DNA of 64,000 nucleotides from Dipetalonema caudispina (taxonomy: Eukaryota > Nematoda > Chromadorea > Rhabditida > Onchocercidae). The stretch covers positions 34,938 to 98,937 of the forward strand of contig JABVXV010000239.1 of NCBI GenBank assembly GCA_013365325.1, given 5' to 3'. Made by a program: the position numbers and the translations under genes. Every line of letters begins with the position of its first letter. Within the stretch, counting starts at the first letter, position 1. This document shows positions 39,625 through 60,540 of this stretch, in pieces. The notes below the pieces were generated by a model. The model was not told the origin of the DNA. It saw only the letters and a program-made list of their open reading frames with translations, and ran no database searches.

Positions 39625-39692
39625 TACTTGGAGGCGGTATGGAATATCGCGCCACTTTTCGGCAACGCCCAGAAATCTAAGTATAAAAGGAT
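39625..39692 (+). promoter_or_regulatory. Promoter-like module before stem-loop A1
   Basis: GGAGGCGGT at 39631, ATATCGCGCC about 15 bases on, and TATAAAAGGATC from 39682. The same order recurs before the stem-loops at 42.2, 43.8 and 47.4 kb and, on the other strand, at 54.8 and 60.4 kb. The CCAAT box present in other copies is degenerate here. Confidence 0.6.
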
Positions 39693-39785
39693 CTTACTTT
39701 TGATATTCAAGTTATTCAATTGCCGAATTGTAACTTTTCTCACTTCCTTCAATCTTCTCATTGGGCCAACAAATCTTGGAAGCGT

Positions 39786-39865
39786 AAGAAGCAGCAGTTG
39801 TATCGTCTGTGATATGTTGTATGATTGCTTCTCACATCACAGACCCGATGCAGCCAGCTGTTCTT
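39786..39865 (+). ncRNA. MicroRNA-like stem-loop A1
   Basis: The 5' arm has GTATCGTCTGTGATATG, the loop is about 15 bases, and the 3' arm has CATCACAGACCCGATGCAGC. Lower-stem AGAA/TTCT pairing extends it to about 80 nt, a normal pre-miRNA size. The 3' arm carries AUCACAG, the miR-2 family seed. It lies about 100 bases after a TATA box. Nearly identical to A3. Confidence 0.65.
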
Positions 39866-41559
39866 ATGCCATATCCGGGATATTTCGTAAAAACCCTCAC
39901 TTCAGTATATATCCATACGGGATAATCTCTCACGGTAGAGCTTCAGAACAATCGATCGCTCACCGGAGACATTGTTCCACATGGGTACAGCACAGCTTAT
40001 CCCAACTTCTTGAAACATTAGATTTGAAAGTAACCGAAGAAATCAGATTGACTATTGTAACCATAATAAACAATATTTCCATATCACGAAACGCTTATCA
40101 TTGATACTATTCGCGTGAAACTGATGACGTTTAACCTCATTCCAATCATTTCTCACTCCATGGAAAGTTATTTGTTCTACATACTGCAGGATTGTTGCAA
40201 CATGTTAAGTTTGTGTAATGCTGTTGATGATCAGACTGTAAATCGTTCCAGTTGCAAAAGAAAACTGACATCCTGAGAAAGCCGGATATCTTGAATGAAA
40301 ACAACCGGATCTGCTCATTGTTTCATCTATCAATACTACACAAATGCAAAGTTGCTAGGCGCAAACTCAATAAAATATTGAAAATTGTTGATGAAAATAG
40401 CAAACATACAAACAAGTAAACTACGGTATTGAATAAAACAAATGTGTGTTATTTGTCGGTTCGTGGATAGACGGTTTAGACAAATTCTACAACAACAGAC
40501 GAAATTGTCCTTTATTCTCTCCCTGGTTGTTGCAGGATACTTTCACTAGCCAATGAACATATAGAAGATCGATCGAATGACCAATCCGCTATCTGTTTTT
40601 TTCTGAACAACAATACCTAATTTTATTTTCTGTCTAAAGCTTGTTTAAAATCTTCAATTAAAAATATAAAGTGAGCATAGAAATAGAAATTCAAAATGAT
40701 ATAACCAAAGTAAAAAAAAAAAATTATCGACTGATCCGTTAAAAGAGTAGAAAGTTTGGAGTTCATTCATTCTTCAGATGCATCATTTTTGTATTGGAAA
40801 TTTTGAGTTTAAAATAAATTTGAAAATGGACTTGAAAAAAGTTAGTAAAATTGAAACACTTTCACAGAAATTTTTAAATTCAGCGATTTCTGTACTTCCA
40901 TTGAGAATAACATGAGTTGATAAATATCAATGTTTTTATCATGAGGAATAATTATTGCTTACTCTTTCACATCTGTACTGCAATTGACATTTCGGATTCT
41001 GATGAATAGGCATCATTACAAGCATGCTAGAGATCGTTACGTAACTTGTTACTGATAACGTAACTTTTTATAGGTCAAGTTATGTAATTTGTTATTAACG
41101 TGTAGTAGAATGAATCTGCTACCCCCTGGAATTAGATTATTTTGTCCAGAAAGTAAAATAAGATCAGATCAGATTGAGAAACAACAGATCTTACTCAGAA
41201 GATTACTGAATGAAATATGAGAAGAAAAATTATTTTAAAAGGATTCTGATCAATCGAAGACTGAAAGAATCATCCTCGATACTCAAACTAATCAGTAATT
41301 ATTGAATTCAACTCAATGAAACAAGAATGTTTTTTCAGGTGAAAATTTAATTAACCTTATGATATGAGCAGTATTCATTATAAATCTGTCAGGTTTTTCA
41401 ACGCTAAATCAATTAGGTTTATCTTTTCCTTTTTTCTCTCATTCAAAACTTTTTTCAAATACTCAATAATTGGGGCATTAATCGATATAATTGTTGGCAA
41501 GGGACCATCTGATTAAAGAAGGAAATTTTTCCGATTGAAATATATTAAGTTTTATCAGA

Positions 41560-41802
41560 GTGATTTAGCAACAATCATTGATTTTCTGAAATATTATTTA
41601 ATAAATATTCGTAATAATGTATGTTTGCATTATGTGAATTGATTATTTCCGTTTAATTTTAATATTTCATTCATTATCACTGAAACAATTATTGATTTTT
41701 CTGAAGTATTTGATAAATACTCATGGTAACGTATATTTGCATTTGTAAATTGACTATTTCTGTTTGATTTTAATATTTTATTTCAATATCGATGAAATGA
41801 AT
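41560..41802 (+). repeat. Diverged tandem duplication, two units of about 120 bp
   Basis: ATTGATTTT-CTGAA, AATA(A)T(A/T)C, TTTGCAT, then ATTTCYGTTTRATTTTAATA occur twice in the same order. The copies start at about 41.56 and 41.69 kb. No other feature is seen. Confidence 0.65.
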
Positions 41803-42062
41803 AAAATTCTCTTCGGGCTAATTCGATACAATGATATTTTAAATCTACAATTGTGAGAACGATGATTGAGTTGAAGAGAGAATGAAACCGAAAGATGAAC
41901 AATTCAGAGGAATTGGTCACTCTATCTCTAATATCTTCGACTACAAAATGGTCAATGAGAGAGATTATAGGAGAAATAGTATGAAGAAATGACGCTAAGT
42001 GCTTACCACTGTTTTTAATGAATTTTTTCCGCTCGTTGATATGCGTACCAATCATTTCACTT

Positions 42063-42141
42063 CAATGCAATACTTGGAGGCGGTACCCAAAAAATCGCGC
42101 TTTTTTTGTTTAGTAACACCTCCAAAATCAGTGTATAAAAA
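42063..42141 (+). promoter_or_regulatory. Promoter-like module before stem-loop A2
   Basis: CAATGCAATACTTGGAGGCGG, written here as CAATGCAA then GGAGGCGGT at 42077, followed by ATCGCGC and TATAAAA at 42134. Spacing to the stem-loop is about 100 bases, as in the other copies. Confidence 0.55.
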
Positions 42142-42236
42142 TACCCGATTTCTGGTATTCAATTTATTTGGAGTTCCGAGGTTTTAAGTTATATCCCAAA
42201 TTTTCTGCTTTTATTATATCTCCTAAATGTGCCAGT

Positions 42237-42305
42237 TACAGCAGTTGTATCGACTGTGATATATTGTTTATCTCATATATCGCAGTCCCGATGCAGCACA
42301 CTGTA
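42237..42305 (+). ncRNA. MicroRNA-like stem-loop A2
   Basis: 5' GTATCGACTGTGATATA pairs with 3' TATATCGCAGTCCCGATGC. Compared with A1, a U-A pair has become A-U (CGUCUG/CAGACCCG to CGACUG/CAGUCCCG), which keeps the stem. The 3' arm seed region reads AUCGCAG. Confidence 0.6.
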
Positions 42306-42530
42306 CTTGTACTACACTGGAGTATATTGACTCAAACTATCGTCTATAAAGTTATTGTTACGTTACGCATAACATGTGAGAATCTTTAGTGTAATGGAAA
42401 ACAGTATTTGACGATTAAATTACAGATGTATGAAATGTCCATAAAAAAGGATATTATGTTTTGAAAAAGTAACTAATCAGTTCATTATGTGAATTTTCAA
42501 ATCAAAATGAATATCATTTATTATCATAAA

Positions 42531-42614
42531 CTGCTGCCACAAAGGATAGTATTCCACGGTTGCGCTTGAAATTTATGAAATGCCCACTGGGAGTACTATT
42601 CTTTTTAGTAGTAG
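42531..42614 (+). ncRNA. Stem-loop D1
   Basis: 5' CTGCTGCCACAAAGGATAG pairs with 3' CTATTCTTTTTAGTAGTAG, and TATTCC with GGGAGTA. The stem of about 25 pairs includes several G-U pairs, and the total is 84 nt. The inner part has CTTGAAATTTATGAAATG, and similar segments occur near 53.79 kb, 50.45 kb and (minus) 51.34 kb. The strand is tentative. Confidence 0.5.
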
Positions 42615-43629
42615 TGTTGGTCAAGTTTATCGTTCCCGTAAATCTGCCATCCAAGGAATTCCCTGAAGCTCTGAATCTTCGTTAAAATTTGATCAAAAAA
42701 CATCAACTGCTATAAAAATGATTTGTAGAAAATGACATAAACATATGAAGAGAACAAACATTAGAATCCAAAAAAATACTGCTGATGAATCAGTTGTGTT
42801 GTAGCATTCAAAATTTTCCAAATAATACAGATTTGCATTCCGGTTACCTAAATAACACTTATCTATATTCCGGTAACCCTGTAAGCAATTATGCTCTCTT
42901 TTACACACAAAAAAAAAAGCGGTGCTCGGAATAATTTGGATCGAGTCTGAGTAATAAATTCCTAACGGACAATTTCAATGTTTAAAATTTAGAAATCGTA
43001 TTTTCTCATGGAATTCTAATTCATCAGTATACATTAAAATTTTGTATACCATTCTAATCAATATTTTGCAATTTCTAAAGTTCAAATTTTTCATAAACAC
43101 CACAATCGTTGCAATATACTTTCAGTAAATTGTCATATGAATCAAAGTTTGCAAATTAAATGTTCTTTCTTAGAAAATAACAACTCGAACAACGTTATCA
43201 TACCTTCATTAGGAAGGATAATAATCAAGAAATGATCATTTTATCTTCTAGTGTTGACTTTCGATTAAAAAAGAGGAACTTTCCCACTTTTTTACGTTTT
43301 GAAGTTGAATCATTAAAATAATCCATTTTTTTTACTATATCAATTTTAACTTAACTTTGTTAATTTTAAAATAAATTAGAGAGCGAAATTTTTATTCGAG
43401 GATAAATTTCAAATTTGTTATCTCTGGTTAGGTATTTTCATACACTGTACTGAATTTCGTCCCTCTATTTTCGTCCCTTTCTGAATGTTGAGTTTCAGGT
43501 TAAATCATTTACAGGTAATTTTGAGGATTGGCCACTTGCCGCCAATATTTTGGACCTTCATCAGTTATCGATTGAAGAAAACCAATGAATGGATTGCCCC
43601 GCCCGGTGATCCATTGACCGATAGATCTG

Positions 43630-43708
43630 ATCCAATGCAATTCTTGGAGGCGGTATGAAATATCGCGCCTTTTTTCTGGCAACGCCCAGAAATCTACTTA
43701 TAAAAGGA
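43630..43708 (+). promoter_or_regulatory. Promoter-like module before stem-loop A3
   Basis: A clear CCAAT box (GATCCAATGC), GGAGGCGGT at 43647, ATATCGCGCC and TATAAAAGGATC from 43699. This is the best-preserved copy of the module. Confidence 0.6.
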
Positions 43709-43797
43709 TCTTACCTTCGAAGTTATTCAGTTGTCGAATTGTAACTTTTCTCACTTCCTTCAATCTTCTCATTGGGCCAACAAATCTTGGAAGCGTC

Positions 43798-43875
43798 AGA
43801 AGCAGCAGTTGTATCGTCTGTGATATGTTGTATGATTGCTTCTCATATCACAGACCCGATGCAGCCAGCTGTTCT
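43798..43875 (+). ncRNA. MicroRNA-like stem-loop A3
   Basis: 5' GTATCGTCTGTGATATG pairs with 3' CATATCACAGACCCGATGC, with a 15-base loop. It contains UAUCACAG in the 3' arm, identical to the first eight bases of miR-2 family members. It differs from A1 at one base in the arms, so the duplication is recent. Confidence 0.7.
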
Positions 43876-44019
43876 TATGCCATATCCGGGATATTTCGTA
43901 AAAACTCCCACTTGAATACATATCCATGCGGGATAATCTCTCACGGTAGAGCTTCAGAACAATAGATCGCTCACCGGAGACATTGTTCCGCTTGGATACA
44001 GCATTTCTCATCTCAACTT

Positions 44020-46870
44020 TCTGAAATGTTAAAACTCTGAAGTAACTGAAGAGATCAGATTTACTACTGTAACCATAATAATATTTGTTCAATGGCTGAA
44101 GAAATTCTTCAAACAAATGCTATTAAGAATTCTTTACTAAATTGTACAGAAGTTATGTTCAATAGAAATTAGTCCGATATTTATGTTTTTTTTTTTTTTT
44201 TACCTAATGATTTGAAAATATAGTTTGTTTTTTTTTTTTTCGGTATGTCCATATGAACTTGCCTATAACCATTTGTTAACTTTGAAGAAATCTCTTGTCC
44301 GTAAGATGAAAGCATTGTAATAATTGACAAAATGTTGTGTATTTTTATAATTTCATCTCATCTTCACTAAAGAATTATCTCATGAAAATAAGTAATCATT
44401 TCATTTTAATAAAAGGGGAAACACTGCTGTACACATTTGCTGTTGTTGCACATTGTACAACGATAACATACATTGATCTTGATATCAATTATCAGAATAG
44501 AAGTAGAACATTACTCTCTATAATGATCAACAGTATGAAATAATTTTGAGTAGATTATAGCTGAATGGTATCTTGGATCATCATATTGATCTATTTACAA
44601 GTTAAGCATGGGGTAATTTCCTTTTGTAAATAAAAAAAAGTCTTTTTGAATAAGTCAAGGATTTTGTTGATTTATTGGCAGAGTTTAAATAACAATTCAA
44701 TATATATGTTAAATACACTTAGACATGTGAATTCAATTTTGTTTGTGAATTCTAATATGCAATTAAGATTTCGTTACGTTGTGATAGGACTTAAGGATTC
44801 ATCGTGGATTCTATCAAATATATAAATACTTGCCAAAGAGGAAAATGTAACACGTTAACTTCAAAAGTTATAGTTGTTATAGTTGATCGTTTTGAAATTT
44901 GCTTCTCTAAGGATGATTCAATGTAATAAGTAGTTGATTCTTTCAGTATATCAGTTATTCATTTCAAGCTCGTTGCATTTCTGTACAAAATAAAAAGAAA
45001 AATAAAAGATTCACTTAATAAAACAAAACAATACAATTTCTCACACTGTTCGCTAGGATTAGCGTTATCAGTAAAAGAACCTTGGAATAATATTAGCATT
45101 TCCCAAAATTTTAGCGAACTTATCGTTTTTGCAAAAATTTTATTTGCAGGTAATCTATAGATAATGCTTTTAGCTTTGGTTGAAAATTCGGATTTTCCGG
45201 ACATAAAACTTTGTGCATTACGGTAGCTTGTGCAAAAAATGACATCAGTGATTATTTGTTTTCTTATTACTTTTAAACTAATTTCATAATTCTTAGAGTT
45301 ATCGTTGTTTCTGAAGTTGCATTTGGAGAATATTTGGAAAGGACGAAAAGAAGTTTTTAATTATAAACTAAGAATGGCGATACATAGGGATGTTTTTGGG
45401 ATTTTAAAATGCATAGATTCAGTCAGAAGTGGAAAGAGTAATACGGTATGCTACACTGCTTTTTACTATGCACGGTATGCTACACTGCTTTTTATTATGA
45501 AGATGCGCTACTTCTCCATTTGGAGAAAGCGGAGAGAGGTTAAAGGAATTTTGAAGGGCAAAAACACGGGAGAAGAAAAATGGAGGAAAAGGAAGGGATG
45601 AGGAAAATGGATGAGGGATCGACAATTTAGGAAGCGAAATTTGATGTATCGAAGATAACAAAGCAACCAAATAGTGCAAACGGATGCGAGTGATATTAAA
45701 AAAAACCGGAATAAATAACCGTAAAACTCGCCGCACTGTTAGTTTGTTCGTTTTTTTTTTCCTTTTGTTTTTATTTTTATTTTTTAACAAGTCTAAAACA
45801 TTGCAATATGTACATCATTTAAATTATTTTCAATTTTTTAATCAATGAGAGTATAATTGCAATATGATGGAATGCAAGAAGCATTGATATTTCCATACAT
45901 ATATCAGTTGTTGATCAAGTAAGTGATTTACTGGTATGATTCCCAGAATAGATGATCAATCAATAGGATGAATTATTTAAAAAAGGAGAGATTTTATGGC
46001 TGCAAATATCACCTATGAAATATTCAATAACATCTGATGCATTTCTTTTTTAATTAAATCGTAATAAATTGTCGTTTATGCATTTAATTCGCTTTGTCTT
46101 CAAGTGATATTGCACTATAGCAATATAAGATAACAGTGAAAAATTTTTCAAGAAGTTGTTTTTGTTAGAAATTTCGGATTTACAATGAAAGAAACGACAC
46201 TATGAAATGGTTTTTTAAAAAAATTAAGCTTCTAAATTCACGGCGCTGATGAAATTTAGTTTTTTTGACTATCATTTGCCAGTTGAAAAAATATTCCTTG
46301 GTTTTGTTGAAAATGCTGGTGACACTTTCAATTAAATTCTCCAAAGAATTGCAAATCATTTATTTTCATACCAATTTCTTTGCGGAATAATTTTTATTTT
46401 TTGGCACTTTGATGAAAAGTAATTTAGTATTGAAATTGAACAGTTAATTTGCACAAAAAATAGTCCACGATTAAATATGTAAATAAGGATGGGTTTAAAA
46501 GTGAAATTGGAAAAGGTATAATTTCCAACCTAATTTTACCAATAACAATATGGTTAGATTAATAACTGAGACGGGTCAGAGGTCGGGTCAAATTTAAAAG
46601 AGTCATAATTAATCGATAAAAAGCAATTCATACAATGCCTTTGTACAATAAATTTAATATATATCCAAATCTTGGAAGTCTACGGAATGATTTATCTCAT
46701 TTTTGAAATTGATCTAAAGGTTATCTTTAGGAAACGTATAATTTAATTTTAGCAAAATATACTTTAACTCTATAATTTTTTGAATTCTCGATCTTGAAAA
46801 ACAGAATTCAGTACTTCTCACTTATAACAATCGCTTCTTTCATCTAATTGCATTACCATAAAAGGTGAAA
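44020..46870. other. Non-coding AT-rich interval
   Basis: I see no exon or stem-loop that matches the families here. It holds a perfect-start 29 bp tandem duplication at 45443-45500 (ACGGTATGCTACACTGC) and a less AT-rich purine-rich island at about 45500-45740. Open frames over that island have no splice or composition support. Confidence 0.5.
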
Positions 46871-47284
46871 CAAATAAGATATTGCAAGAATGTTCCTTTT
46901 AGTCATCTGACGAAAAACCTCATTCACTTTTCTCATTCATTTCGATCAAAACAAAATGTGTTAGGTAATTTAACGAACGCTTTTAATTTAAATAATTCAG
47001 TATTTTGATTGTGAAATGAGTGAAATTGTTAAATTATTTTTGTATTCGAATACATTATTTTTGTTTTTGTGGTCTTTTCTTCATTTGTTGAATGGAATAG
47101 CAACAATAGATGACAAAGTAATGGATAAATGGAACTTAGATGACTGGTCATTCCATCTCTAATGCATACTGGTCAGTGAAAGAAAGAGTCATGTTAGGGT
47201 TGGAATAGAGTGAACAGTTTTTGTTTATCGATAAATGGATTACTCCGCCTGCTAATTCACTGACCAATAGAATAGATTTATTTG

Positions 47285-47364
47285 ATCCAATGGAATTCTT
47301 GAAGGCGGAGTGTAATATCGCGCCTTTTTTCTGATCAACATTCCCAAATCTCTCTATAAAAGGA
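47285..47364 (+). promoter_or_regulatory. Promoter-like module before stem-loop A4
   Basis: CCAAT (GATCCAATGG), GAAGGCGGA at 47301, AATATCGCGCC and TATAAAAGGATC from 47355. A4 follows after about 80 bases. A5 and A6 further downstream have no module of their own, so they may share this transcript. Confidence 0.6.
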
Positions 47365-47436
47365 TCCAACTTTTGATATTCAAGTCATTCAGTTGTTCTT
47401 CTCTTCCTCTCCTGATTGGTTACAAATCCTGAAAGT

Positions 47437-47522
47437 GCAAGAAACAGCAGTTGTATTGGCTGTGATCTGCTGTATGATTACCCCTCATATCACAGACCCA
47501 ATGCGACTAGCTGTACTTGTGC
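47437..47522 (+). ncRNA. MicroRNA-like stem-loop A4
   Basis: 5' GTATTGGCTGTGATCTG pairs with 3' CATATCACAGACCCAATGC. The change UCG to UUGG is matched by CGA to CCAA in the other arm. It has UAUCACAG in the 3' arm. Confidence 0.65.
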
Positions 47523-47816
47523 CATTTATAGGATGTTCCATTCCAAACCACAAATGAAGTAAAAACTTTTCCGGAAATCTATGTCAATCGGTTTGTTCAT
47601 CGAAGAAATTGTTCCGCAATCGATACCGTATCATTCTTAATCATCATCCCAATTTCTTCAAAGTTCTAAACTCGTAACCGAAGAGATCAAGTTAACTGTG
47701 ACCATAATGAATAGTATTTTATGGTTGAGCTTGATATTCTTGTGATGCTCACCGTTAATACTATTCGACTGGAAGCAGTGCTATTTAGCCTCATTCTTAA
47801 ATTTCAAAGTCCAAGA

Positions 47817-47909
47817 AACAGCACCAGCGACAGTCGCTGAGTCGGTTGCGGTATGTTGTTGTTAATTGTTTTGCATATCGCAGGACCGATTCAGCATACT
47901 GCGCTGTGT
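47817..47909 (+). ncRNA. MicroRNA-like stem-loop A5
   Basis: 5' GCTGAGTCGGTTGCGGTATG pairs with 3' CATATCGCAGGACCGATTCAGC almost throughout (longer string split: GCTGAGTCGG with CCGATTCAGC, TGCGGTATG with CATATCGCA). AACAGC/GCTGTGTT extends the base. The seed-position sequence is AUCGCAG. Confidence 0.6.
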
Positions 47910-48504
47910 TCGCACGCACATCAGAAATGACCAGAACGTTCTTTATTGCAATATTAATTTAGTCAAAGTCGGTATGTTGCTGCACTTCAAGCCATAAATG
48001 CCAATGCTAGCTAACTACCGATCGTTTAGCATATAAAATAAAACGCTAACTGCTTTGTAGAACATCTTGGATTCCAAATTTCTTGTGTGCTATAAGTGAT
48101 CCCTACCGAATAAAGCCTAACATTCCGGCAAATGAGCTGTGCTGCATATCCGGAAATCCAAAAGTGGATAAAGCTATAGCTATAATGAGCAATATTTTAA
48201 ATAAGAAAATAAAACAAATCAAGATGGGCGAATTTTAGGATGCAGAAGTTATTAAAAGGGTTATCATATTGTAATACTTCAGTCCTAATTTCTTAACGAG
48301 AAAATAACAGAGATTGGTTCTTGAAGGACGGCGTTGTTATTCAACACCACCCGTTGATCTAAAAGTAGATGATATATTTGAATCAGTGCTACATATGATC
48401 AGTTATGGTCAGGACAAGAAGATCTCTGGGTAAAACTGAGTTCATTTTGCACCGAAATCATTCCGATGCGTAATTATAACACAGCCCATAAACCGAAAGT
48501 GCTA

Positions 48505-48579
48505 GTGCGACGGTCGTATCGGCTGTAATATGTTGTTCGATTATTTCACAAATTGCAGATCTGATGCGGCAAGTTGCAT
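48505..48579 (+). ncRNA. MicroRNA-like stem-loop A6 (diverged)
   Basis: 5' GTATCGGCTGTAATATG pairs with 3' AATTGCAGATCTGATGC, and the loop TTGTTCGATTATTTC is identical to that of A8. Lower-stem TGCGAC/GTTGCA pairs. It is more diverged in the 3' arm, so function is less certain. Confidence 0.5.
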
Positions 48580-49164
48580 TTATGTACCCGAGTTATATCG
48601 GTTAGACTATTTCTAATATGAAAAGCAATATTCAAACAAGAACTCAAAAGAAAAACATATGGTCGTGAAAATGTCAAGAACTTCCGACGACAACGTTCCA
48701 AATGAAGCGATTTAGACTCAACGAATATGCCAGAATTTCAGTGTTACCAAAATTTATTTTCCGTTTAATTGGTACGAAAGGAAAGAAGCAAGTGAAAAGA
48801 GAGGGATTCATAAAATATTCCGGAAAAAAGCATGTGACACATCCATGAAAATTAAACGACATTTGCAATCATGAAAAATAGTTTGACCGGTAGATACATA
48901 TTTGTTCAGCTAAGATGGTCAGAGAAAGGACAAAATTGCTAAAAAGAGAAAATCAAAAACTGAAAAGAAAATCAGGAATGAATAATTTAAAACATAAAAG
49001 ACGAGAATTAAAGTTTTTCATTTTATCCAACTAAAGAATTCAGTTGTTATTTTACTGATTATAAGATATTCATCAGTCTCTTATTTTAATTACAAATAAA
49101 AAAGGAAATATTAGAAAAGAGTCAGAAATCATAACTTCCTCATCAAAGACTACTTAATTTTCAG

Positions 49165-49925
49165 TTCAAAAAAAAGTATTTTTTCATATTGGTCTGCAAC
49201 TTTTTTGTCATTGGGATTGATTCATTTTTGGGTTTGATCTGCTTGCGTTTCATAACCAACGTTATCAAACTCAATAACCTTTCCATTATTGTTCTGTTCA
49301 TCAAAAAATGCATCATTTCATATTTGACCTTACTTTTAACTGACAAACAGATTCGGGTCATTCAATTCCCAATAAATCATAAAGAAACCATCATTGAATG
49401 TCAACAATCTTTCAAATTTAGATTTGCTTTATCTTTCTCTCTCCTCATATGATAAACTATTTCATTAAGCACTTAACCCAAACGTTTCATTCAAAATTCG
49501 AAACTAAGATTCCAAGAAAATATTTCTCTGTCAGATAATTTGGTCATTTTCAATAGGTAATACATTGCTTTTTGAGAAAGAAATATCGCGTGAGAAGTAC
49601 CGTAATCCACACTTTCATAATTTACAATTTGCATGGAAGAAACAATTCTTTTTATGATAAAATAAGTAAAAGCAAATCTTTATGTGGTAGTTTTATGACT
49701 GAAATTTAAAAAAATTCATTTGTGTTAGATTATAAAAATGCAACGAACTTTGTTTACTAATGTACTCAAACTTCAAATATAACGCAATTTTATTTTCATA
49801 TAGCAACAGAATCATTCATATTGATAAATCCTTTGATGAGAGAGTGAATAAAAGTTTCATCGAATTGATAAATCCACTGATGATATTAAAGTATCTGCCT
49901 GGCAATAATAACTGTTGTTTTGCTA
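49165..49925 (+). repeat. Inverted duplication, left copy
   Basis: It is nearly identical to the reverse complement of 61448-62238, apart from an indel of about 30 bases near the inner end. The high identity compared with the diverged stem-loop units means this duplication is recent. Confidence 0.9.
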
Positions 49926-49980
49926 TTGATCTCTGCGGATGCAAAGAATTTGAGGTGTTATCCCGGTTACTGGTAGATCT

Positions 49981-50046
49981 AATCCGGTAGGGCAAAAATA
50001 CCGCACCTTATCATAAATTTCTTCGGCAATTTGTTATAAAAGGATC
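49981..50046 (+). promoter_or_regulatory. Promoter-like module before stem-loop B1
   Basis: CCGGTAGGGC, TACCGCACCTT, then TATAAAAGGATC from 50035. The order and the TATAAAAGGATC core match the family A modules, so it is a diverged version of the same promoter. Confidence 0.5.
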
Positions 50047-50124
50047 TTTCTTCTGTCATTCACGTCACTCGATGTGTTTCTTCATACCTCTATGCTTCTA
50101 CTGATATTCGAAATTCAAAAAGGA

Positions 50125-50164
50125 AGTGTTATTGCTTCTGTTCAACTTTTCAAGCAATAATACT
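50125..50164 (+). ncRNA. Stem-loop B1
   Basis: AGTGTTATTGCTT pairs with AAGCAATAATACT over 13 positions (one G-U), with a 14-base loop. It lies 90 bases after TATAAAA. The visible stem (40 nt) is short for a pre-miRNA, so this could be another small RNA or a foldback. Confidence 0.5.
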
Positions 50165-51924
50165 AACGAAAAGCTGAGATTCTTTGACGCTGAATTCGTA
50201 TGAGCTTTGTTCATTAGATGAGATTTACTAAATATTCGCCTAATGACACTGTTCCGAATGGAAGTAGTGTAATCCAGAATCGTCGATACCTGTCTGAAAT
50301 CATTGTTTAAACTGAAGGTCCTTCTATTAACTTATCATAGATTATTTTGGTTGTTTTGCAACACATTAGGAATATGTATGTACTGGCATTTCGGAAAATT
50401 TTGATGCGAAAAACCGTAAAATCGTGTAAAGTACTGTCATACATGAGGTTTATGAAATGTTCACCAGTTGAACACGGTGTATACGCATGCAGAAACATAT
50501 GAATCGCAGAGCATAGGAACTCTATTTTTGATGAATTTTCGAAGCGAAATTAGAATCCGTTTTAGCTGATCTACATTTACTTATTTGTGTCACTGCATTT
50601 CTTATGGTGTTCTGTACAAAGAAGCAACGTGGAGGGAGTTCTTACGCAGACAGCTTTCGGTTTTCTTTAGTAATGTTGTCTCGACATGTTGTCTTTTTCG
50701 GTGAAGAGCGAGAGAGAGAAAGGCACAGTTCCGGCATTCAGATGATTGATACAGTAATCCATAAGTGATACAGTAGTCCATTCAATCTAATCATTTAATT
50801 TAACACGAAATGACTTTATTGATGATCAAGGTGCATCTTCACGCCGATTACGACAGATTCGATAGCATAACGTATTGGCGGCACAACTTGGCAGCAGTGA
50901 TTTTTCACCACGAAATTAAGCATTTGCACTTTTTTAATTTCTGTAAATTCTTGAACTGACATTTGTACTGAATTAATTAACACGTACAGTTCACTGATAC
51001 TGAAGAAAATGTTAAATTCGATATCTAATGTATAATTATTTGCATAAGTGCTGCAGCAACAAAAAAAGTTTCATAGAGCGCTGATGGGATTTTTGTAATC
51101 TTCCATTTCCTGATTACTTAATATTGAAGGATTTTCAAAATGGAATTACGGTCTGCGCTATGAGAATTCAAACCCTATTTCATCAAGTTTTATAAAACTC
51201 GCAGAAAATTGCATGCACTATGCTACTACAAATTCGCCGTAGTGAATTTCGCATAGAAACGTTTCAATCTTTTATTTATTAGTGTTTTTGATAATCATCA
51301 GCGAATTTTGGCGCTTTCACCGTATTCGCTGTAAACACTTCATAAATTTTAAGCCTAGCGATGATATGTAATTTTGATGAGAAATATCTTACAGTGATCT
51401 TTGATTTCACGAGTGTCTAGAAATTAATAAAATCTGTCCAAAGCAGTGGGATATAATTCCGTTATGACGCAAGTCAGTTTGCGTCGCATAGCTTGTTACA
51501 TGATGCAACCATAAAAACGAATGATACCTTAGTACTACGTATTATGAACAGAATAGCTGACTTAGCTAGCCCAACTACGCTGAAGTTCCATTACGTTTTC
51601 AGTTGAAAAACGCCTCTTGTTGAGTGAGAATTTTATCATTTGCTAAGATTTTTTAAGCGACTTTGCTAATAATATAGTGGTTGGAAGGACTTTGTAGTTG
51701 AGAAATTAAGGACTCGGATAGATTGTCTCAACACCGGTGTAATTTTGAAAAACTTTATTCAACAAGAGCATAGTGACCATCAATGTTTGAGATACAACAG
51801 CTTTTGCTTGTCATTAGACGATTATTTTCATTTAGAACAATGTCATTACGATTATTTAAAAAAAAAACTCATCCAAAGAACAAAGCTCATACGAATTTAG
51901 CGTCAATAAATCTCAACTTTTTGT

Positions 51925-51959
51925 TGGTATCGCTTGAAAGTTAAGCAGAAGCAATAACA
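51925..51959 (-). ncRNA. Stem-loop B2
   Basis: Minus strand: TGTTATTGCTT pairs with AAGCGATACCA (nine Watson-Crick pairs, one G-U, one mismatch). Compared with B1 the stem is kept despite substitutions. It is downstream of a TATA module on the same strand. Confidence 0.45.
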
Positions 51960-52040
51960 GTTCCTTTTTGAATTTCGAATATTACTAGAAGCATAGAGGT
52001 ATGAAGAAACACATCGAGTGACGTAAATGACAGAAGAAAG

Positions 52041-52105
52041 ATCCTTTTATAACAAATTGTCGAAGAAATTTATCACAAGGCGCGGTGTTTTTGCCCTACC
52101 GGATT
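52041..52105 (-). promoter_or_regulatory. Promoter-like module before stem-loop B2
   Basis: Read on the minus strand: CCGGTAGGGC, ACACCGCGCCTT, then TATAAAAGGATC (TATA at 52051-52045). The CGCGCCTT element is closer to the family A module than the B1 copy is. Confidence 0.5.
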
Positions 52106-53744
52106 AGACTTACCAGTAACCGGGATAATACCTCAAATTCTTTACATCCATAGAGATCAATAGTTGAGCGTTATCGATCTCTTCGACTTTTCATGGAACG
52201 GTACAAACTATCGTCCTGTTAAGGTTTACAGTTGATAGTAATATTGCATGGATCATAAAGGATAATTAACATGGTTCTTTTTCTGTATTTTTTTTTTTTT
52301 TTTGGAAACACTTTTGTACACAATGTGTGTTGTAGATTTAGTACGAACACTGTTGAAATGTTTTGTTAATTTAGACTGCCAACACTTTCAGCATCTATCT
52401 CCGATGGAATACCGTGGTGTCGAATGAAAGAGAACACCATAATCGCAAAATCTATTCTCGTAAGTGTAGATTTCCTGTCTCACAACTAAATTTGGATATA
52501 AATTAACAACAGTTTAATCTTGTGAAATATCAAAAAGACTCTTTTGATGTCCAATAATTCGATTTTTGGTTGTGATATTAGCAAACCACTTGGTTAATAG
52601 CATAATTTGACAATAAAATGATTCTAAGAATTTCATACTTTCTGTCAGTAACAGTATGGTACCAAAAAAAAAAGTTCATAATTCTGTAATGGATGCCGTA
52701 CGACAGCGTATCAACATTGTGGTCGCGTTACTGAGAGGGAAGTATCTGACAGGATTAAAATTCCAAAATGACCCTTTCTTCAACTTCTCGAAAAAAATAG
52801 AATTTTTTGTGATGCACAAATTATTAACTTTTTGCTTTTAAATTTAAAAAGATGTTGCGTTTTATGTTCGAGAATGCATTGTGTTGCTTATTCAAGTGTA
52901 TGAATATTTTGCTAAATGATATTACTTCTATAGTGTTAACTGTGATCGGTTTGAGATTCTTGACGATAATCACCATTTGAATCTTTTTTTCTTTCTCCTC
53001 TGCTAAGTGAGGACATGAGTTTAAATGATGACAATGGTGTAATTATTCTATCGATGAGCTAAAATTGATACAATGTATTTCTGATGAAGGTAACATTTCT
53101 TGGCATTATCACCTTTGCGAACCTTTTCACATCTCGACCTCTTTCACAGTACGATGAAATACATGGAATATTCATTCAAGCATTCAGTAATAGCAATGAT
53201 TTTCATTCAGAAATGCGAGAAAAGCTACTAAATATAATTCTAAGAAATAATATACGGAATGAATGCTGTACTGAATGCTTTCTGCGGTCGAATATCGAGT
53301 CTGAATCTTGCAGCATTCGAAACATTCGCCATAACTGTGATTCTTTGCGTCCAGTTTGTAAAATTCTTAGCATCTAATAACTTTCGACACTCTCCCACGT
53401 CCAATTCAATAACACACTGAAGCATTGCCGAATGTTTGTAAAGGCCTTATGTGGAATCAGAATCTAGGATCAGTGTAACATTCAGCATGACTATAGTTCT
53501 CTGAATCTAGTCCTTTCAGAATTTCAGAAATTCTGCATAATCTCACGGTAGAAGTTTAAGGAGAGAGGTCGCAAAACAAAAGTGAGAAAGAATGTATAGC
53601 ACTTTACTGAGGATACGGTAGTTTTCATTATTCTTCATGATGATAGCAGCATCATTTTTACCTTTCATTCTACCTCCCACTGTAATTATTAACTGCTCCA
53701 ACCTAAAAACTTTTCATTCCTTTCACAGGTACGAAATCTACAAC

Positions 53745-53826: not shown

Positions 53827-54361
53827 AGATTTTATGCAAATATGGATATTTCGCTTATTATTTATACTTGCATCATTTTGCTGAAATTTTAATATGTTCT
53901 CCTTCACATATCCATTTATTTCAATTGATTTTACATAGATGCAATGCCTAATTTTTTTCTTAACTCATTACAGTTTCGGAAAGATTTTCTGTTCAAAGAA
54001 AACAGTGTGATAGAGAATGATACAAATCTAGCTGTATCCGTCTGTGTTTTGCAAAACAATTAAACATCATAATACAGAAGATATAACTGCCTTTCAAATG
54101 CCATTCTCGTAACTTTCAGCTTTTTTTGTTACTGTAGTAATATTACTTTTGTTAAGAATGAAGTTCATCTTTCTCAGCATAATCTACAGAAATGATAGAT
54201 GTGACAAATCTCGTCTTTAGTGTGGAAACTAGGGTTGTTAAATTTGAAAGTGCCAAATTAAATCTCTTTCCAGCATCTTTCAATATCATCAATTTCTGGT
54301 TTTCTTTGTATGGGATAATTTTTGCATAGAATATTTAAGGATAAAGAGATGTTGTTGCGAA

Positions 54362-54446
54362 AGTGCAGTACACTGTATTGGTTCTGCGATATGTAAAAAG
54401 AATAACAACATATCATCACAGCCAATACAATGACTGCCACAGTGCT
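54362..54446 (-). ncRNA. MicroRNA-like stem-loop A7
   Basis: Minus strand: 5' GTATTGGCTGTGATGATATG pairs with 3' CATATCGCAGAACCAATAC, with GGCAGT/ACTGC and AGCACT/AGTGC-type pairs outside. The loop starts TTGTTATTC. The seed-position sequence is AUCGCAG. No own TATA module was seen; it may share a transcript with A8. Confidence 0.6.
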
Positions 54447-54760
54447 ATTTTCATGTGGATCAGAATTTAAAGCGCAGAGAATAAGTAGTAGGATGAGAAA
54501 CTGGACGATATTGCTTCTATATGAGTAGTCTTAACGAGAATTGGCTTGAGATTCTGACTTCCGGTCAATTAGTATGACATTCTACAAATGCTTTCCATTT
54601 GGAGCAATGCCTTCGGTAAGAATTTTTACTCAGGCACAACCGTAAGTTATTGTTTGTTATGGTTGAGCTTCGAGACACTATATTTTTCAGGTAGATTACT
54701 ATTAGAATATTGCTGTTCGCACGAGTAGTAGTTTGACCGATATATCCCGGATATTGCACG

Positions 54761-54845
54761 AGTGCAGCTCGCCGTATTGGGCTTGTGATATGAGAAATAA
54801 TCGAACAACATCTCAACAACCGATACGGCTGCTGCTACTAGCACT
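54761..54845 (-). ncRNA. MicroRNA-like stem-loop A8
   Basis: Minus strand: 5' GCCGTATCGGTTGT pairs with 3' ACAAGCCCAATACGGC. GCAGC/GCTGC and AGTGC/GCACT extend the base. The 3' arm has UAUCACAA, one base off the miR-2-type start. It lies about 80 bases after a TATA module on the same strand. Confidence 0.6.
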
Positions 54846-54919
54846 TTCGGAAATATATCCAGATGAGTGAAGTGTGTTGTGATTACTTGTTGGAATGATT
54901 TGGATTACAAAAGAAGCTT

Positions 54920-54988
54920 TCTTTTATACACAGATTTGATGTTGTTGAATGGAACATTTTGTCCCACCTCCATGTATCACATTGGTTC
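54920..54988 (-). promoter_or_regulatory. Promoter-like module before stem-loop A8
   Basis: Minus strand: GAACCAATGTGATACATGG, then GGAGGTGGGAC, then TATAAAAG (TATA at 54928-54922). Same CCAAT, G-rich and TATA order as the plus-strand units. Confidence 0.5.
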
Positions 54989-55418: not shown

Positions 55419-55455
55419 TATTCAGCTATTCGCAAATATTCCGAATAGCTGAATA
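55419..55455. other. Perfect short inverted repeat
   Basis: TATTCAGCTATTCG and CGAATAGCTGAATA form a perfect 14-pair stem with a 9-base loop. It is shorter than a typical pre-miRNA and has no TATA module nearby. It may be a terminator-like or foldback structure. Confidence 0.7.
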
Positions 55456-55499
55456 CTTGCTCAGTTCAGTCGTAATATTACAAACCATTTCTATTATTT

Positions 55500-56868
55500 G
55501 AATTGATATATTTGGGTTATCGCATGAGTTTTTTTATATGTTAGCGATTTAAAATGTAATCAATAAACACATAATATCCGACATGATACAATTATTTCCA
55601 TTAATATATTCGTTATATCGTTGATATATAAAAAGAAGAAGATGTGATATGAATTAGATGATGAATGATGCAATTTATCTAAAATCAATGTTGTTTTTAA
55701 TTTACTCTGTTTTAGTGGATTTGACTGATGAAAATTCTCCGCAATTTTGTAGAAAATGGCTGTAATTATTGATCGTTTATAAAGTGATTTCTATCTTCTA
55801 ACAAATAGAAATATTAGAAAGATATTATTAAAATTACTGGTATTAATAGAAGTAAAGAAAAAGGCAAAAGTAAATGTTGAATTTTAAAATGGGAACAAAT
55901 CCGTTGGCCAAGCTTAAATGCTCAGAAATAGTATTTTGTTCCGATTTTTTGAGCATATTTTTTATGCCATTGCAATATGAATTCGATATCGATAAATTTT
56001 ATTGCAAAAGACTTATAATTGAATCTAATTTAATTTTTTATAAGTGATCAACTCAAATGCACTTTTTTTCAAATGAAATATTTTAAAATGCTAATAATAT
56101 AAATTGAATAAAAAAGACATTATGCAGTTCCTTTAAGTTCTTTTGTACCTAAAAATTATCGTAAGAGGTAAGTAAGCAATTTAGTTCATTGATTTTTTCA
56201 TATTAATTATCCGTCATTTATCCACTCTTTCTTATTTCATACAAACAGTACTAATGCATAAGTTCCATTTGCATTAATTGCAAAAACAATTTAGGTGTGA
56301 AAATAATCCTAAATAATCATTCATCTACCGATAATTATCTCTTCACATACACTCAACATGATGTTTATCTGCTAGTGACGATATTTATTTTCAACGGTTC
56401 ATATATCTGCCGAATCATCATCCATCATGGTAAATCCTATAATGAAGGGATGCAAGAAAATATGTTAGCATTTATCTAATAGTGATAAATGCTGCAATAA
56501 AGTCGAAAAAAAAAGTGCAGTATTATGGTTTTCTTCAAGTCTGATCAGGTTAATTAAATTATAGCGATAGAAAAAAGATTTCCACCATCTTTCATTTCTT
56601 CTAATTCACAATTAAACAGATCAAGTATTAACATCATATTTAATGAAATTATTCTAAAAAATGATCGGTCAAAAATTAATAGATGCATGCAATGACTATT
56701 ATGTAACTTACTTCATTGGATAATAAATTTCCTCTACCCTTACATTTCGATGAATTTCAAATAATTCATTATTGAAAAAATAAACATTAAAATAAATATG
56801 GTTGAAAAGATTATTATTAGTACTTTTCATGATTATTATGATGAAATGAGGAATTCAAATGAAAAAAC

Positions 56869-56900
<32 letters not shown>

Positions 56901-59100
56901 GAAAATAAATATTCGGTAGAAAAAAGATTATATGATCATTATCGTAAGATTTCACTTTTTGAGAACAAAACCAGATGATATCTGCTAAAAAAATTCTCAT
57001 CATTGTCGTTATTATTCTTCAATAGCATACGACAATAAGGAAAAATATGGAATGATGAGAAAGAGAGAGAATCTAATATCTGAGAAATTCAGAATACTCA
57101 ATTATTTGAAAACTTGTCAAGGATATGTTTTAGGGATAATTAAATGACCTAAATCTGTTTACCTACCATTATTTTCATATATGCTTCAAGTCATTAAGGC
57201 AAAAAATCAAGCAATAATCGATTTTCAATGATAGAAATATTTGAAGGGATTAGTTAATTTTTCTAATATTAATTGGGGATTGATACATTCACAAAAGTTT
57301 ACATCATATAAAAAAGCAATAATAATTAAAGATCGAATGATAGGATCAAAATTTATATTTCAATTCATTATGCGAGATAATTTAATCAGCGCTAAATATG
57401 AATGAGTAAATTTGAACAAAGCAAAAGAAAACAAACTTTTTTTTTTGTTAATTCCGAAATTTTCTCTTCAAAATAGTAACAATTATGAATGGCAGAGAAG
57501 AAAATCTTCCATGATCATATCTAAATCTTTGGTATCATCCTGCATCCCTTCATTATCGGCTAATCACCAGACATGATAAATTTATTTCAATCATTATGCA
57601 AAGGACATAATGGCAACAATGAAAGAAGTTTATAATATTAATAGTAGACGAATAATACACTACAAAATTAAAATCTAAAAATAATTTTAAGAAAACTTTT
57701 TGAATAGCTTTAAATTTTTAATAAAAATTACTAACGAAAATTTGCATTTTCGAATTTAAAATATTTGAAAAAATTTGCAAACATGAAATTCAAGCATTAA
57801 ATGTTCTGCTTCTTACTGAACAAAACTTCTTTAATAGGTACATTTCCGGGATATAAATAATTGAAATCTTCACCATAACTCTTGCTACGCAACGAGAGTA
57901 ATAAAACGATGGATACTTCATCCAAATTTATTCCGAAACGAAAAGTATTACTTCGTATCGTTGAAATTACAATCATAAAAACATGATGTTCACACTGAAT
58001 CTTTCATATCAAATATATTCTCATGATATGAAATTCTTCAAAATTTAAAGATGTTTAATTGTTTAGCATAAATTCATCATTTTCCACATGTAGCACTTTA
58101 ATATAAATTAATTAAGTAATTTACTTTTACAAAATTTTCATTACTGTCACTGCATTTCATTTGTTACTTCCAGAAAAAAGAATTATAACAAAGTATAAAC
58201 AAAACTGAATGACTTTTTTTCTGATGCCCAGTTTGATCTCAAATATTCCTGCAAAATGATATGAAATACAAATTTATCTGTTGATACAGTGAATTCATTA
58301 AATTGTACTTCAATTATACTTTAATAAAAATCCATTCGACCGAATGATATTTATGATAGTAATTGAACAAAAAAAAAAAAAATCAAAAAAAAAAATCCAA
58401 AAAGATCTTCTTGTGATGAATTTCATGATAAATTTCAAATTTATGCAAGATTTTTATAATATTTCCAATATTATGACACTTCTTCATCAATATAGTGTAA
58501 CAAAACTTGCAGGAGGTCGTCTTTTAGGATGTTATTGTTGTGAGTGATAGTGAATTTTTGATTCTGGAAGAAGTCCGATTGGATTTTCAAAAATATTTCA
58601 CAGGTCAAAATAAAAAAGGAAATACTTTCTCATAGCATTATTTGAGTCAAAAACGAAATATTCTTCTATTAGATGAAATTAATTAAATGAATATAATAAC
58701 TGGATTGCTTTTTCTCCCTTTTTTTCACAATTATACTGACATTTTTGGAGATGATCATTAACATTAATGGAACGGGATCAAATGAACGATATCAAATTTT
58801 CCGGTCGAAACTATCACTCATATTTTTTTAATGGAAAGAAATTAAGATTATTTGATCTTTTTACCGAAGAAGTAATTCCTGAAAATTTGACTATTCCTTG
58901 TGCGGAAATATTAATGTCGGATCATAGATAAATCTCACTTTTCTGCAGAAAATTTACTTTCCACAATTATCTTTGATCTAAACATCGATTATTGCCATCT
59001 CTTTCTCCTTCAATTGAGACTTTCTTGCAAGAATCTTCTTTTTCCTTTCACTGATCGATATTATGAGCCTAAATGGATCGGAGAATTGATGGAAGAACGA
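55500..59100. other. Non-coding AT-rich interval
   Basis: AT-rich sequence with a 28-base poly-A at 56869-56896. No exon, repeat unit or family stem-loop is recognised. Confidence 0.5.
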
Positions 59101-59146
59101 AGATTTAGATCGCAATTAACTGTAATGATACGGATTCTATCGAAAC

Positions 59147-59209
59147 ACTGCTTCCATTGGGAGTAATAATAACTTGCGATGTTAGGTTATTATTCCCAAT
59201 ACAGACAGT
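59147..59209. ncRNA. Stem-loop C
   Basis: ATTGGGA-GTAATAATAAC pairs with GTTATTATTCCCAAT, with a three-base bulge and an 11-base loop. ACTG/CAGT closes the base, giving 63 nt. The strand is not determined, and no TATA module lies next to it on either side. Confidence 0.5.
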
Positions 59210-60200
59210 ATTTTTCTCGCTGTCATCATTTCTGCAAACCTTCCTACAAACTCAAAATTAAAGATTTTAAAGAAACATCGCAATCAAAGACTATTTGCAT
59301 TTCAAGTGTCTAGTAATTCGAAGAAGATTTTAGATTTCCGTTCAAAAATGTGACAAAAAGTAGTTGAATAAATGATTTTAACTCAAACTCGTAAAATTTT
59401 CTAAATTGAACTAGAAAGAATGTAACCAAAATGTCACTATCCTAATATCATTCTGAATCAATACCATGCTAAATGTTTCTTAGAGTTATATGTCAGATTA
59501 GAGCTAGTATAATTTGCGGAATATTCAGCATTGTTATGATTCTATCAATCTACTTCTTTTAGAATTTCAGAAATCCTATGAGATTTATTTCAATTGGTCA
59601 ACCGTCTCATAATTTAATATTTTCTCATTCGTTGCTTCAATTTTACCATATTCAAGAAAACTTTTACGTATTCTTCATGGTAGTGTAACTGTTTTAAAAT
59701 GTATCATAATTTCTACTGCAAAAGATAATAGAAAAAGCATCATAAATTAAAGGACAAGAAAGAATGGATAGGTCAATAATTATTGATCAGAGATGGAGCA
59801 GTTTCCGGAATCACTCATTGTATACTACTGAAGCTCGGAAATGATCACTAAAACATTTGCTGCGTCAGAAAATGAGAAAATTCATTTTCATACTGCTGTT
59901 AATTAATTCAACAAAATCCAAACAATCTTAGTCCTTAATCAAGGAATGTTTGAATTGCTTTTTCACCATTTACCGTTTATATAATGATTCTCAGATAGAA
60001 GCTTGAAATTCTGGATTCTGATAATATTATGATTGTGTGAAAACTTTTCTGATGAACAGAGTGCTCAATTGCTTTTAATAAATCGATGTTATGAAGTTCA
60101 ATTTCAATGTGGCGATAAAAGTTCCAAGCGAAGGATTTGCCACTTGAAATATTGTAACGGCTTTCTATCAAAAGGACTCGATGATCATTCATAGTGTTGC

Positions 60201-60292
60201 AGAAGCTCAATCAGCTGTATCAGTTGTACCACATGCCAAACATATAGCAACAACATATCACAACTGATACAGCAACTGTCGCTAATGCTTCT
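60201..60292 (-). ncRNA. MicroRNA-like stem-loop A9
   Basis: Minus strand: 5' GCTGTATCAGTTGT pairs perfectly with 3' ACAACTGATACAGC, and AGAAGC/GCTTCT closes the base. The loop side has GATATGTTGTT as in the other family A members. The 3' arm no longer has AUCACAG, so any mature RNA from it would have different targets. Confidence 0.6.
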
Positions 60293-60375
60293 TTCAGAGG
60301 AGGGAGAATTTTAGGTAAGAGGTAAATAATGGTAGAGATGAGATTAGGTTTGTCATACAAGAAACCAGCAGATCA

Positions 60376-60412
60376 CAGCCACCGATACGACTGCTATATC
60401 AAGCACTTTCAG
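60376..60412 (-). ncRNA. Decayed family A stem-loop (5' arm only)
   Basis: Minus strand: GCAGTCGTATCGGTGGCTGTG, here as GTCGTATCGG and CTGTGATCTG, matches the family 5' arm. The expected 3' partner is degenerate (GTATGACAAACCTAAT). It sits at the usual distance after a TATA module, so the promoter may now serve A9 downstream. Confidence 0.4.
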
Positions 60413-60487
60413 TTTACAGGAATAGGTAGGAGAGTTGACAGTATTATAACTCCGTATCCAAATGATTTGAGTTGCAAAAGGAACTTT

Positions 60488-60540
60488 CTTTTATACGATG
60501 ATCTGATATTCCGTTCCGCCTTTGTGCACTACATTGGTTT
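60488..60540 (-). promoter_or_regulatory. Promoter-like module before A9 and the decayed copy
   Basis: Minus strand: AAACCAATGTAGTG, AAAGGCGGAAC, then TATAAAAG (TATA at 60495-60489). CCAAT, GGCGG and TATA are all present. Confidence 0.5.

Follow-up and report, generated by a model that had tools for sequence, protein, structure and literature searches.

The window analysed here is a 64,000-nucleotide stretch of the nematode Dipetalonema caudispina (GenBank assembly GCA_013365325.1, contig JABVXV010000239.1, positions 34,938 to 98,937 of the forward strand; C154:34938-98937 in our numbering of a 78.06-Mb genome of 764 contigs), and its segment from 39.6 to 60.5 kb holds an array of microRNA-like hairpins and promoter-like modules. 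Nine related miR-2-like hairpins, A1–A6 on the plus strand and A7–A9 on the minus strand, were located in this array (Table 1); a first-pass annotation of 39625-60540, which had claimed at least nine related stem-loops, gave no coordinates for single features, and its labels A1–A9, B1 and B2 are assumed to denote the features so numbered here. In total, 18 stretches were folded, each against 200 shuffles. The nine hairpins all beat their shuffles, with z values of −3.57 to −6.89, one shuffle in 200 folding as well as A8 and none as well as any of the other eight. The stretches weaker than −3.5 were 54011-54105 (−1.05), C8 (−1.78), B2 (0.47) and 50187-50270 (−2.61).

The nine-row alignment of the miR-2-like hairpins contains 29 consensus pairs, and 95.0% of its 260 cells pair. 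Two-sided change was found in 14 of the 29 pairs, compared with a mean of 5.6 in shuffles and with none of 500 shuffles as high, a standard that related rows surpass easily; with sliding partners, at most six pairs show such change. The number of pair types is a weaker sign (33 versus 29.5 in shuffles, 17/500 as high). These are the long imperfect hairpins with compensatory change that characterize microRNA genes. A model built from the nine hairpins (R1) scores them at 79–104 bits on their own strand, by construction, and at no more than 27.4 bits on the opposite strand where that strand is listed. Mean pairwise identity is highest in the 5p arm (0.71), followed by the 3p arm (0.65), the loop (0.61) and the flanks (0.56 and 0.60).

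With respect to family, the hairpins resemble sequenced filarial mature RNAs. Litomosoides miR-2b-5p, the sequence of which, like that of miR-36b-5p, was taken from PMC6903752, matches A4 with two mismatches and A1 and A3 with three (mean of 0.00 in 100 shuffles), and bma-miR-2h* matches A1, A2, A3 and A6 at 17/20 positions, where the random maximum is 16. The 3p register was set by taking the 5p end from miR-2b-5p and adding a 2-base overhang, which places the start of the predicted 3p RNA at TATCACAG in A3 and A4 and at CATCACAG in A1. As the seed played no part in setting this register, the agreement of the seeds is informative: seven of the nine hairpins carry one of the two miR-2 seeds given for Brugia (Poole et al. 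2014, PMC4019659), either ATCACA (A1, A3 and A4 as ATCACAG, A8 as ATCACAA) or ATCGCA, as in bma-miR-2h/2i (A2, A5 and A7, as ATCGCAG). The remaining two fail, with ATTGCAG in A6 and GTGGTAC in A9, in which the miR-2 seed has been lost. These similarities, the seeds and the covariation support the earlier view of a microRNA locus and place the nine hairpins, as predicted microRNA precursors, in the expanded miR-2 group of filarial worms. Searched as text, the mature sequences of the array gave no match in the literature searched, and shorter pieces led to PMC6903752 and to unrelated papers. Outside the array, a canonical mir-2 hairpin lies at C749:93019-93089 (L012; 63.8 bits, above the Rfam cut-off), in a genome-wide scoring that covered 60 of 22,031 first-look candidates.

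The miR-2-like hairpins have at least four partners of a second family, the miR-36-like hairpins C1, C2, C3 and C4b, which were absent from the first-pass annotation, and the order within a unit is promoter, miR-2-like hairpin, miR-36-like hairpin. The spans A1–C1 and A3–C3 are each 206 bases. One structure is common to C1, C3, C2 and C4b, with 91.3% of 104 cells pairing and two-sided change in 7 of 26 pairs (4/500 shuffles as high); pair types do not exceed shuffles (234/500). The 3p arms begin with TCACCGG in C1 and C3, TCACCGT in C4b and CCACTGG in C2, that is, with the miR-36 seed or an altered form of it, so that three of the four (all except C2) have the TCACCG start of the miR-36 family. 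On C1 and C3, lsi-miR-36b-5p matches at 19/24 positions, where the best of 60 random windows reached 17. Elsewhere in the genome, two canonical miR-36a-like hairpins lie 2.6 kb apart (C44:494827 and C44:497401; L023 and L024); the duplication took in about 1 kb of flanking sequence (92%) and is another instance of copying at the scale of a unit, and these copies match neither of the two array promoter patterns described below. A third miR-36a match, on C742, was rejected as not a good hairpin.

The partner hairpins also bear on bma-miR-5839. An 18-base piece of this RNA, allowing up to three mismatches, found no match. An ungapped ranking of the window's 127,952 positions put the 5′ arm of C4b first, with 18/25; at the same register C2 scored 16 (17 positions reach 16) and C1 and C3 scored 14 (262 reach 14). 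A score of 18/25 is also the maximum in 60 random windows and is by itself not beyond chance, so the match is notable only because of the shared register. Taken with the place of miR-5839 between two miR-2 copies in Brugia, this ranking makes it likely that the filarial-specific bma-miR-5839 derives from a miR-36-like hairpin, of which it would be the 5′ arm.

In terms of promoters, eight modules with TATAAAA were found, at A1, A2, A3, A4, B1, B2, A8 and A9. Since TATAAAA is common (71 in the window, 24 of them in 39000-61500), a TATA box alone is no evidence, and the modules were therefore compared with control sites: 62 of the 63 non-module TATAAAA sites, one near the window end being dropped, with 20 drawn per module. 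Blocks from −75 to +45 gave a median z of 5.7 (minimum 2.0) in the 28 module–module pairs, versus a median of 0.3, a 95th percentile of 2.3 and a maximum of 3.9 in the 160 module–control pairs. After removal of close pairs, and with fresh shuffles, the remaining 24 had a median z of 5.3 (minimum 1.5), and 75% of them lay above the control 95th percentile on the downstream half. A leave-one-out 42-base matrix starting at the TATA ranked seven of the eight held-out modules above every non-module position (about 128,000), A2 narrowly (17.8 versus 14.7); A3 fails (rank 44) because of its 6-base deletion.

A further regularity lies at the expected site of initiation. The trinucleotide TCA occurs 31–33 bases from the first T of the TATA in five modules (A4, B1, B2, A8 and A9) versus 1 of 62 controls, and at a looser place in six of eight versus 8/62; such a distance fits the spacing of a TATA–initiator pair. 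The first hairpin follows the TATA at 100 (A1), 95 (A2), 94 (A3), 80 (A4), 84 (A8) and 87 (B1) bases and, at A9, at 83 bases for the decayed A9b, the intact A9 hairpin being 207 bases away. Two patterns drawn from the modules, CCAATGNNNTNCNNNNAGGYGG and ATWCTTGGAGGCGGTAY, have four and three exact matches in the genome, all of them modules (A3, A4, A8 and A9, and A1, A2 and A3, respectively), and reversed-pattern controls gave none in 78 Mb; given their origin, the news is their absence elsewhere. A single pattern of CGCGCC plus TATA was too strict and matched nothing. In the matrix scan, no module was seen before A5, A6 or A7; deletions can hide a module from this matrix, as at A3, so one could have been overlooked there. 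A TATAAAA at 48032 (+), with CCAATG upstream and 467 bases before A6, was rejected, being unlike the modules and outside the matrix top 20.

The best evidence that the modules are in use is a double footprint, in which promoter and hairpin are kept and the flanking sequence is lost. Blocks were compared, with mononucleotide shuffles, in the 15 pairs among the six units with a recognisable miR-2-like hairpin, the spacer of A9 being cut at 110 because of the distance to its intact hairpin. With the three pairs within the close trio A1/A3/A4 set aside, z values in the other 12 were 1.3 to 10.8 for the promoter and 5.2 to 13.8 for the hairpin, compared with −0.6 to 2.5 for the spacer between them and 0.0 to 1.7 for the 90 bases starting 40 after the hairpin. 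For A1–A2, A2–A3 and A4–A8, respectively, the promoter block gave 9.4, 9.7 and 8.9 and the hairpin block 12.6, 13.1 and 13.8, with spacer values of 0.8, 0.1 and 1.9. The sequence between and after was presumably copied with the unit and lost while promoter and hairpin were kept.

Table 1. Hairpins, promoter modules and decayed copies of the array, with positions in the window.
Feature	Position	Strand	Folding z	Details
Promoter module A1	39624..39714	+		GGAGGCGG, ATCGCGCC, TATAAAA 39682-39688, TTA at initiator place
A1 miR-2-like hairpin	39782..39869	+	−6.52	3p seed ATCACAG; lsi-miR-2b-5p 3 mismatches
C1 miR-36-like hairpin	39910..39987	+	−6.96	3p TCACCGGAGACATTG; lsi-miR-36b-5p 19/24
Promoter module A2	42062..42166	+		TCAATG, GGAGGCGG, ATCGCGC, TATAAAA 42134-42140
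A2 miR-2-like hairpin	42229..42312	+	−6.88	3p seed ATCGCAG
C2 miR-36-like hairpin	42530..42615	+	−5.91	seed changed to CCACTGG
Promoter module A3	43632..43725	+		CCAATG, GGAGGCGG, ATCGCGCC, TATAAAA 43699-43705, 6-base deletion downstream
A3 miR-2-like hairpin	43793..43880	+	−6.89	3p seed ATCACAG; lsi-miR-2b-5p 3 mismatches
C3 miR-36-like hairpin	43921..43998	+	−7.34	3p TCACCGGAGACATTG; lsi-miR-36b-5p 19/24
Promoter module A4	47287..47387	+		CCAATG, AGGCGG, ATCGCGCC, TATAAAA 47355-47361, TCA 47385-47387
A4 miR-2-like hairpin	47435..47522	+	−6.62	3p seed ATCACAG; lsi-miR-2b-5p 2 mismatches
C4a decayed miR-36-like copy	47560..47645 (ends approximate)	+		5′ arm shortened; from unit alignment; no model R2 match
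C4b miR-36-like hairpin	47695..47779	+	−6.45	3p TCACCGTTAATAC; 5p arm resembles bma-miR-5839
A5 miR-2-like hairpin	47821..47909	+	−6.66	seed ATCGCAG; no module seen
A6 miR-2-like hairpin	48499..48587	+	−4.74	seed ATTGCAG; no module seen
Promoter module B1	49988..50067	+		diverged upstream; TATAAAA 50035-50041, TCA 50065-50067
B1 first hairpin	50115..50172	+	−3.70	no R1 match, not recognised as miR-2-like
Promoter module B2	52019..52098	-		TATAAAA 52051-52045, TCA 52021-52019
Decayed miR-2-like copy	54011..54105	-	−1.05	R1 37.5 bits
A7 miR-2-like hairpin	54356..54441	-	−5.59	seed ATCGCAG; no module seen
C8 weak, decayed miR-36-like stretch	54587..54669	-	−1.78	R2 18.1 bits, E 0.012
A8 miR-2-like hairpin	54756..54844	-	−3.57	seed ATCACAA; 1/200 shuffles as good
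Promoter module A8	54896..54985	-		CCAATG, GGAGGTGG, TATAAAA 54928-54922, TCA 54898-54896
A9 miR-2-like hairpin	60199..60288	-	−4.96	3p seed not kept
A9b, decayed miR-2-like 5′ arm	60366..60412	-		83% over 47 columns to A4
Promoter module A9	60463..60537	-		CCAATG, AGGCGG, TATAAAA 60495-60489, TCA 60465-60463

The arrangement of the units holds traces of their history. Because units lie on both strands, one transcript could not make all hairpins in the right orientation. The A1 unit (39624-40069) is closest to that of A3, A1/C1 and A3/C3 being 89.5% alike over 449 columns, and the sequence upstream of A1 is closest to A4 (39286-39872 with 46928-47525, 72.7%), a mosaic that points to conversion or to copying of a unit-sized stretch. 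A 725-base inverted repeat (49169-49893 and 61514-62237, 98% identical), no other copy of which was found in the genome, flanks the minus-strand half of the array and may have turned it round. The B units form an inverted pair of their own (49923-50266 and 51823-52163, 87%), with a TATA module in each; the first hairpin of B2 no longer folds. By eye, a decayed miR-36-like hairpin is possible at 50187-50270, a stretch with no R2 match.

The absence of a protein gene from the array, part of the original description, is borne out in the range covered: nine of the 13 stop-to-stop open reading frames of at least 90 amino acids in the array region were checked against Pfam and none passes the cut-off, the other four, which overlap hairpin units, and shorter exons lying outside this test. 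The window stops at the contig end, so the array may run on beyond it. Elsewhere in the window, exons with DOMON, TIL and EGF domains lie on the plus strand at 17800-28700, the neighbouring DOMON exon having its closest named relative in Onchocerca ochengi (86%), and a tandem repeat of 83/61 bases with more than 90% matches occupies 6306-6756. The 22-base bma-miR-5866 is present exactly in the genome.

Taken together, these observations make it probable that the filarial miR-2-like and miR-36-like microRNA genes of this locus form a multi-promoter array, in which the modules start their own transcripts; judged by sequence, a repeated promoter lies inside the array, in the form of eight modules. 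In the ancestral unit, a compact RNA polymerase II promoter with CCAAT and GGCGG elements, a TATA and an initiator some 32 bases on would have been followed by a leader of about 50–70 bases, one miR-2-like hairpin and then a single miR-36-like hairpin or a pair of them. Such units would have been duplicated whole, some of them later gaining (A5, A6 and A7) or losing hairpins. Every module most likely gives rise to a separate short primary transcript, to be processed by Drosha and Dicer, and A4–C4b–A5–A6 and A8–A7 are probably small polycistronic units, with A5, A6 and A7 riding on the A4 and A8 promoters. Each unit thus appears to have one promoter, which its hairpins share. The first-pass annotation had proposed an expanding microRNA locus in which promoter and hairpin are duplicated as a unit. 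Its observation is confirmed and its interpretation partly supported: the double footprint favours copying as a unit, which also carries a miR-36-like hairpin, with three of the nine miR-2-like hairpins showing no module and looking polycistronic, and "expanding" is only partly right because several copies are decaying. Its modules hold up as eight mutually similar TATAAAA blocks, with 80–100 bases to the first hairpin for the seven distances measured (about 75–105 had been claimed), and the decayed neighbour that it gave A9 is taken to be A9b.

Several points weigh against this reading. The G-rich/CGCGCC element that had been ascribed to the modules is not general, as CGCGC is present in five of eight (A1–A4 and B2) and missing from A8, A9 and B1, and of the CCAAT-like or GGCGG-type elements the latter is found in six modules and is missing from B1 and B2. 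On the upstream half alone, only 58% of the 24 distant module pairs exceed the control 95th percentile. The promoter block is weak in A2–A9 (z 1.3), and the spacer block, at 35–65 bases, has less power than the 120-base promoter block, although it still reaches z 5.7–17.9 in close pairs. Three of the 12 distant pairs also align at −200 to −75 (A2–A4 4.2, A3–A8 3.9 and A8–A9 8.0), so that conservation is not sharply confined to the module. The A1–A3 similarity can be recent conversion, and A9b, C4a, C8, 54011-54105 and B2 have all decayed. The best score of the array against Rfam RF00047 is 29.2 bits, below the gathering score of 45.5, and the hairpins are filed as a diverged filarial miR-2 group, not as Rfam mir-2; an Rfam scan at gathering scores gave no match, and matches at E up to 10 (mir-44, mir-994, MIR1444 and snoRNAs) fell under the cut-off and were taken as chance. 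Finally, Litomosoides miR-2b-5p is enriched in microfilarial products over both adult sexes (PMC6903752), which does not fit a simple female-germline picture.

The same decay, together with drifting seeds and the close likeness of A1/C1 to A3/C3, could reflect a mostly dying array in which only A1, A3, A4 and their partners are active, kept alike by conversion, and the other modules are inert. We regard this as unlikely, in view of the strong folds of A2, A5 and A7 (z −5.59 to −6.88), the two-sided changes in the hairpin family and the promoter similarity kept in A2, A8 and A9; it overlaps with the multi-promoter reading, so that the two are not exclusive. Less likely still would be one long polycistron per strand, with real microRNA hairpins made from a distant or first promoter and the modules as relics of copying. 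Single transcripts are regarded as the norm for animal clusters (PMC3763532), A5, A6 and A7 have no visible module, and all copies share descent. Relics, however, should decay like the adjoining spacer, which the modules have not done; the TCA spacing is kept in five of the eight, and most units lie kilobases apart.

Two explanations of another kind have little in their favour. The fixed place of the TATA and the upstream element resemble the type 3 promoters of RNA polymerase III units such as U6, and A4, A8 and A9 have no TTTT between the expected start and the first hairpin. A TTTT run is a stop for this polymerase, however, and in three units such runs precede the hairpin, lying 16–22 bases past the expected start in A1 and A3 and 17, 36 and 44 bases past it in A2; the window also contains no tRNA genes, and we consider such units very improbable. 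Slightly less credible again is a repeat or transposon family that only resembles microRNAs. Repeated, partly inverted copies and large inverted repeats nearby would suit it, but the unit DNA matches the genome at this locus only (4/4 places), and the hairpins resemble sequenced filarial mature RNAs.

With respect to use, the relatives of the array give mixed guidance. Adult Brugia worms, and females in particular, show elevated levels of miR-2b and its partners, and the miR-35 family of C. elegans is cited as gonadal and as required in embryos (PMC4019659); among Litomosoides products, miR-36b-5p has a median of 17 reads in gravid females and 0 in males and microfilariae (PMC6903752). Because the Litomosoides miR-2b-5p pattern disagrees with that of Brugia, expression of the array in the female germline or embryo is a guess with mixed support. 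A bolder proposal, which we hold only tentatively and think rather doubtful as a whole, is an independently evolved nematode counterpart of miR-430, with eight independently firing TATA promoters giving high miR-2/miR-36-like output in the female germline and early embryo and units free to change their seeds; as a corollary, bma-miR-5839 would be the 5′ arm of a diverged miR-36-family hairpin. More generally, most clusters of animal microRNAs are accounted for by a single promoter and a single transcript, within which hairpins are duplicated or arise anew. In this array the promoter seems to have been duplicated along with its hairpins, which would give new members control of their own from the outset, and the worm may rely on numerous small copies of a single gene unit in place of one long cluster. 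The array would thus be a testable case for the evolution of dosage and seed diversity in a family with relatives that filarial worms release; it would also recast miR-5839 as a relative of miR-36.

The miR-2/miR-36 family and its clustering are already known from Brugia malayi, which has eleven miR-2 members, six from recent expansion (Poole et al. 2014, PMC4019659). Its three miR-2 and miR-36 clusters (A–C) span 205–221 bases, close to the 206 found here, and two are 94% identical; they lie in two groups on a 23-kb scaffold with a fourth cluster, of miR-2h-2, miR-5839 and miR-2f (data not shown in that paper). For mir-5839, Table 5 there lists DS237141.1:12185-12289 as the B. pahangi entry. 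Both species thus have two near-identical clusters and a more diverged one with a second miR-2, ATCACA/ATCGCA seeds and close grouping. Unlike the present account, the main text of the Brugia paper uses the word promoter 0 times, and it lists miR-5839 as a separate filarial-specific family (PMC4019659). No nematode description of a repeated promoter within a miR-2/miR-36 array was found in the literature searched. The mir-35-41 cluster of C. elegans likewise belongs to the miR-36 seed family and is gonad-expressed, but as described there it has seven hairpins within 800 nt and no repeated unit with miR-2 members, only miR-43 adjoining miR-42 (PMC4019659). An upstream motif of independently transcribed nematode microRNAs, CTCCGCCC (Ohler et al. 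2004, as cited in PMC2613404 and PMC551538), has one-mismatch matches upstream of A3 (43597-43604) and A4 (47243-47250) and, reversed, in the A4 module (47303-47310). The window has no exact match, three of its six one-mismatch matches lie outside the array, and 1/100 shuffles has as many, so that those near the A3 and A4 modules are a lead only. A parallel in design is the zebrafish miR-430 locus, of a type marked by separate transcription starts and an early zygotic burst, which consists of many near-identical units, whereas the eight modules here are old, diverged and on both strands, and the microRNAs are unrelated. Like that locus, with its tandem microRNA units and a promoter repeated inside the array (PMC10417697), the array may work as a small, old and diverged counterpart of fish miR-430, alike in design and not by descent.

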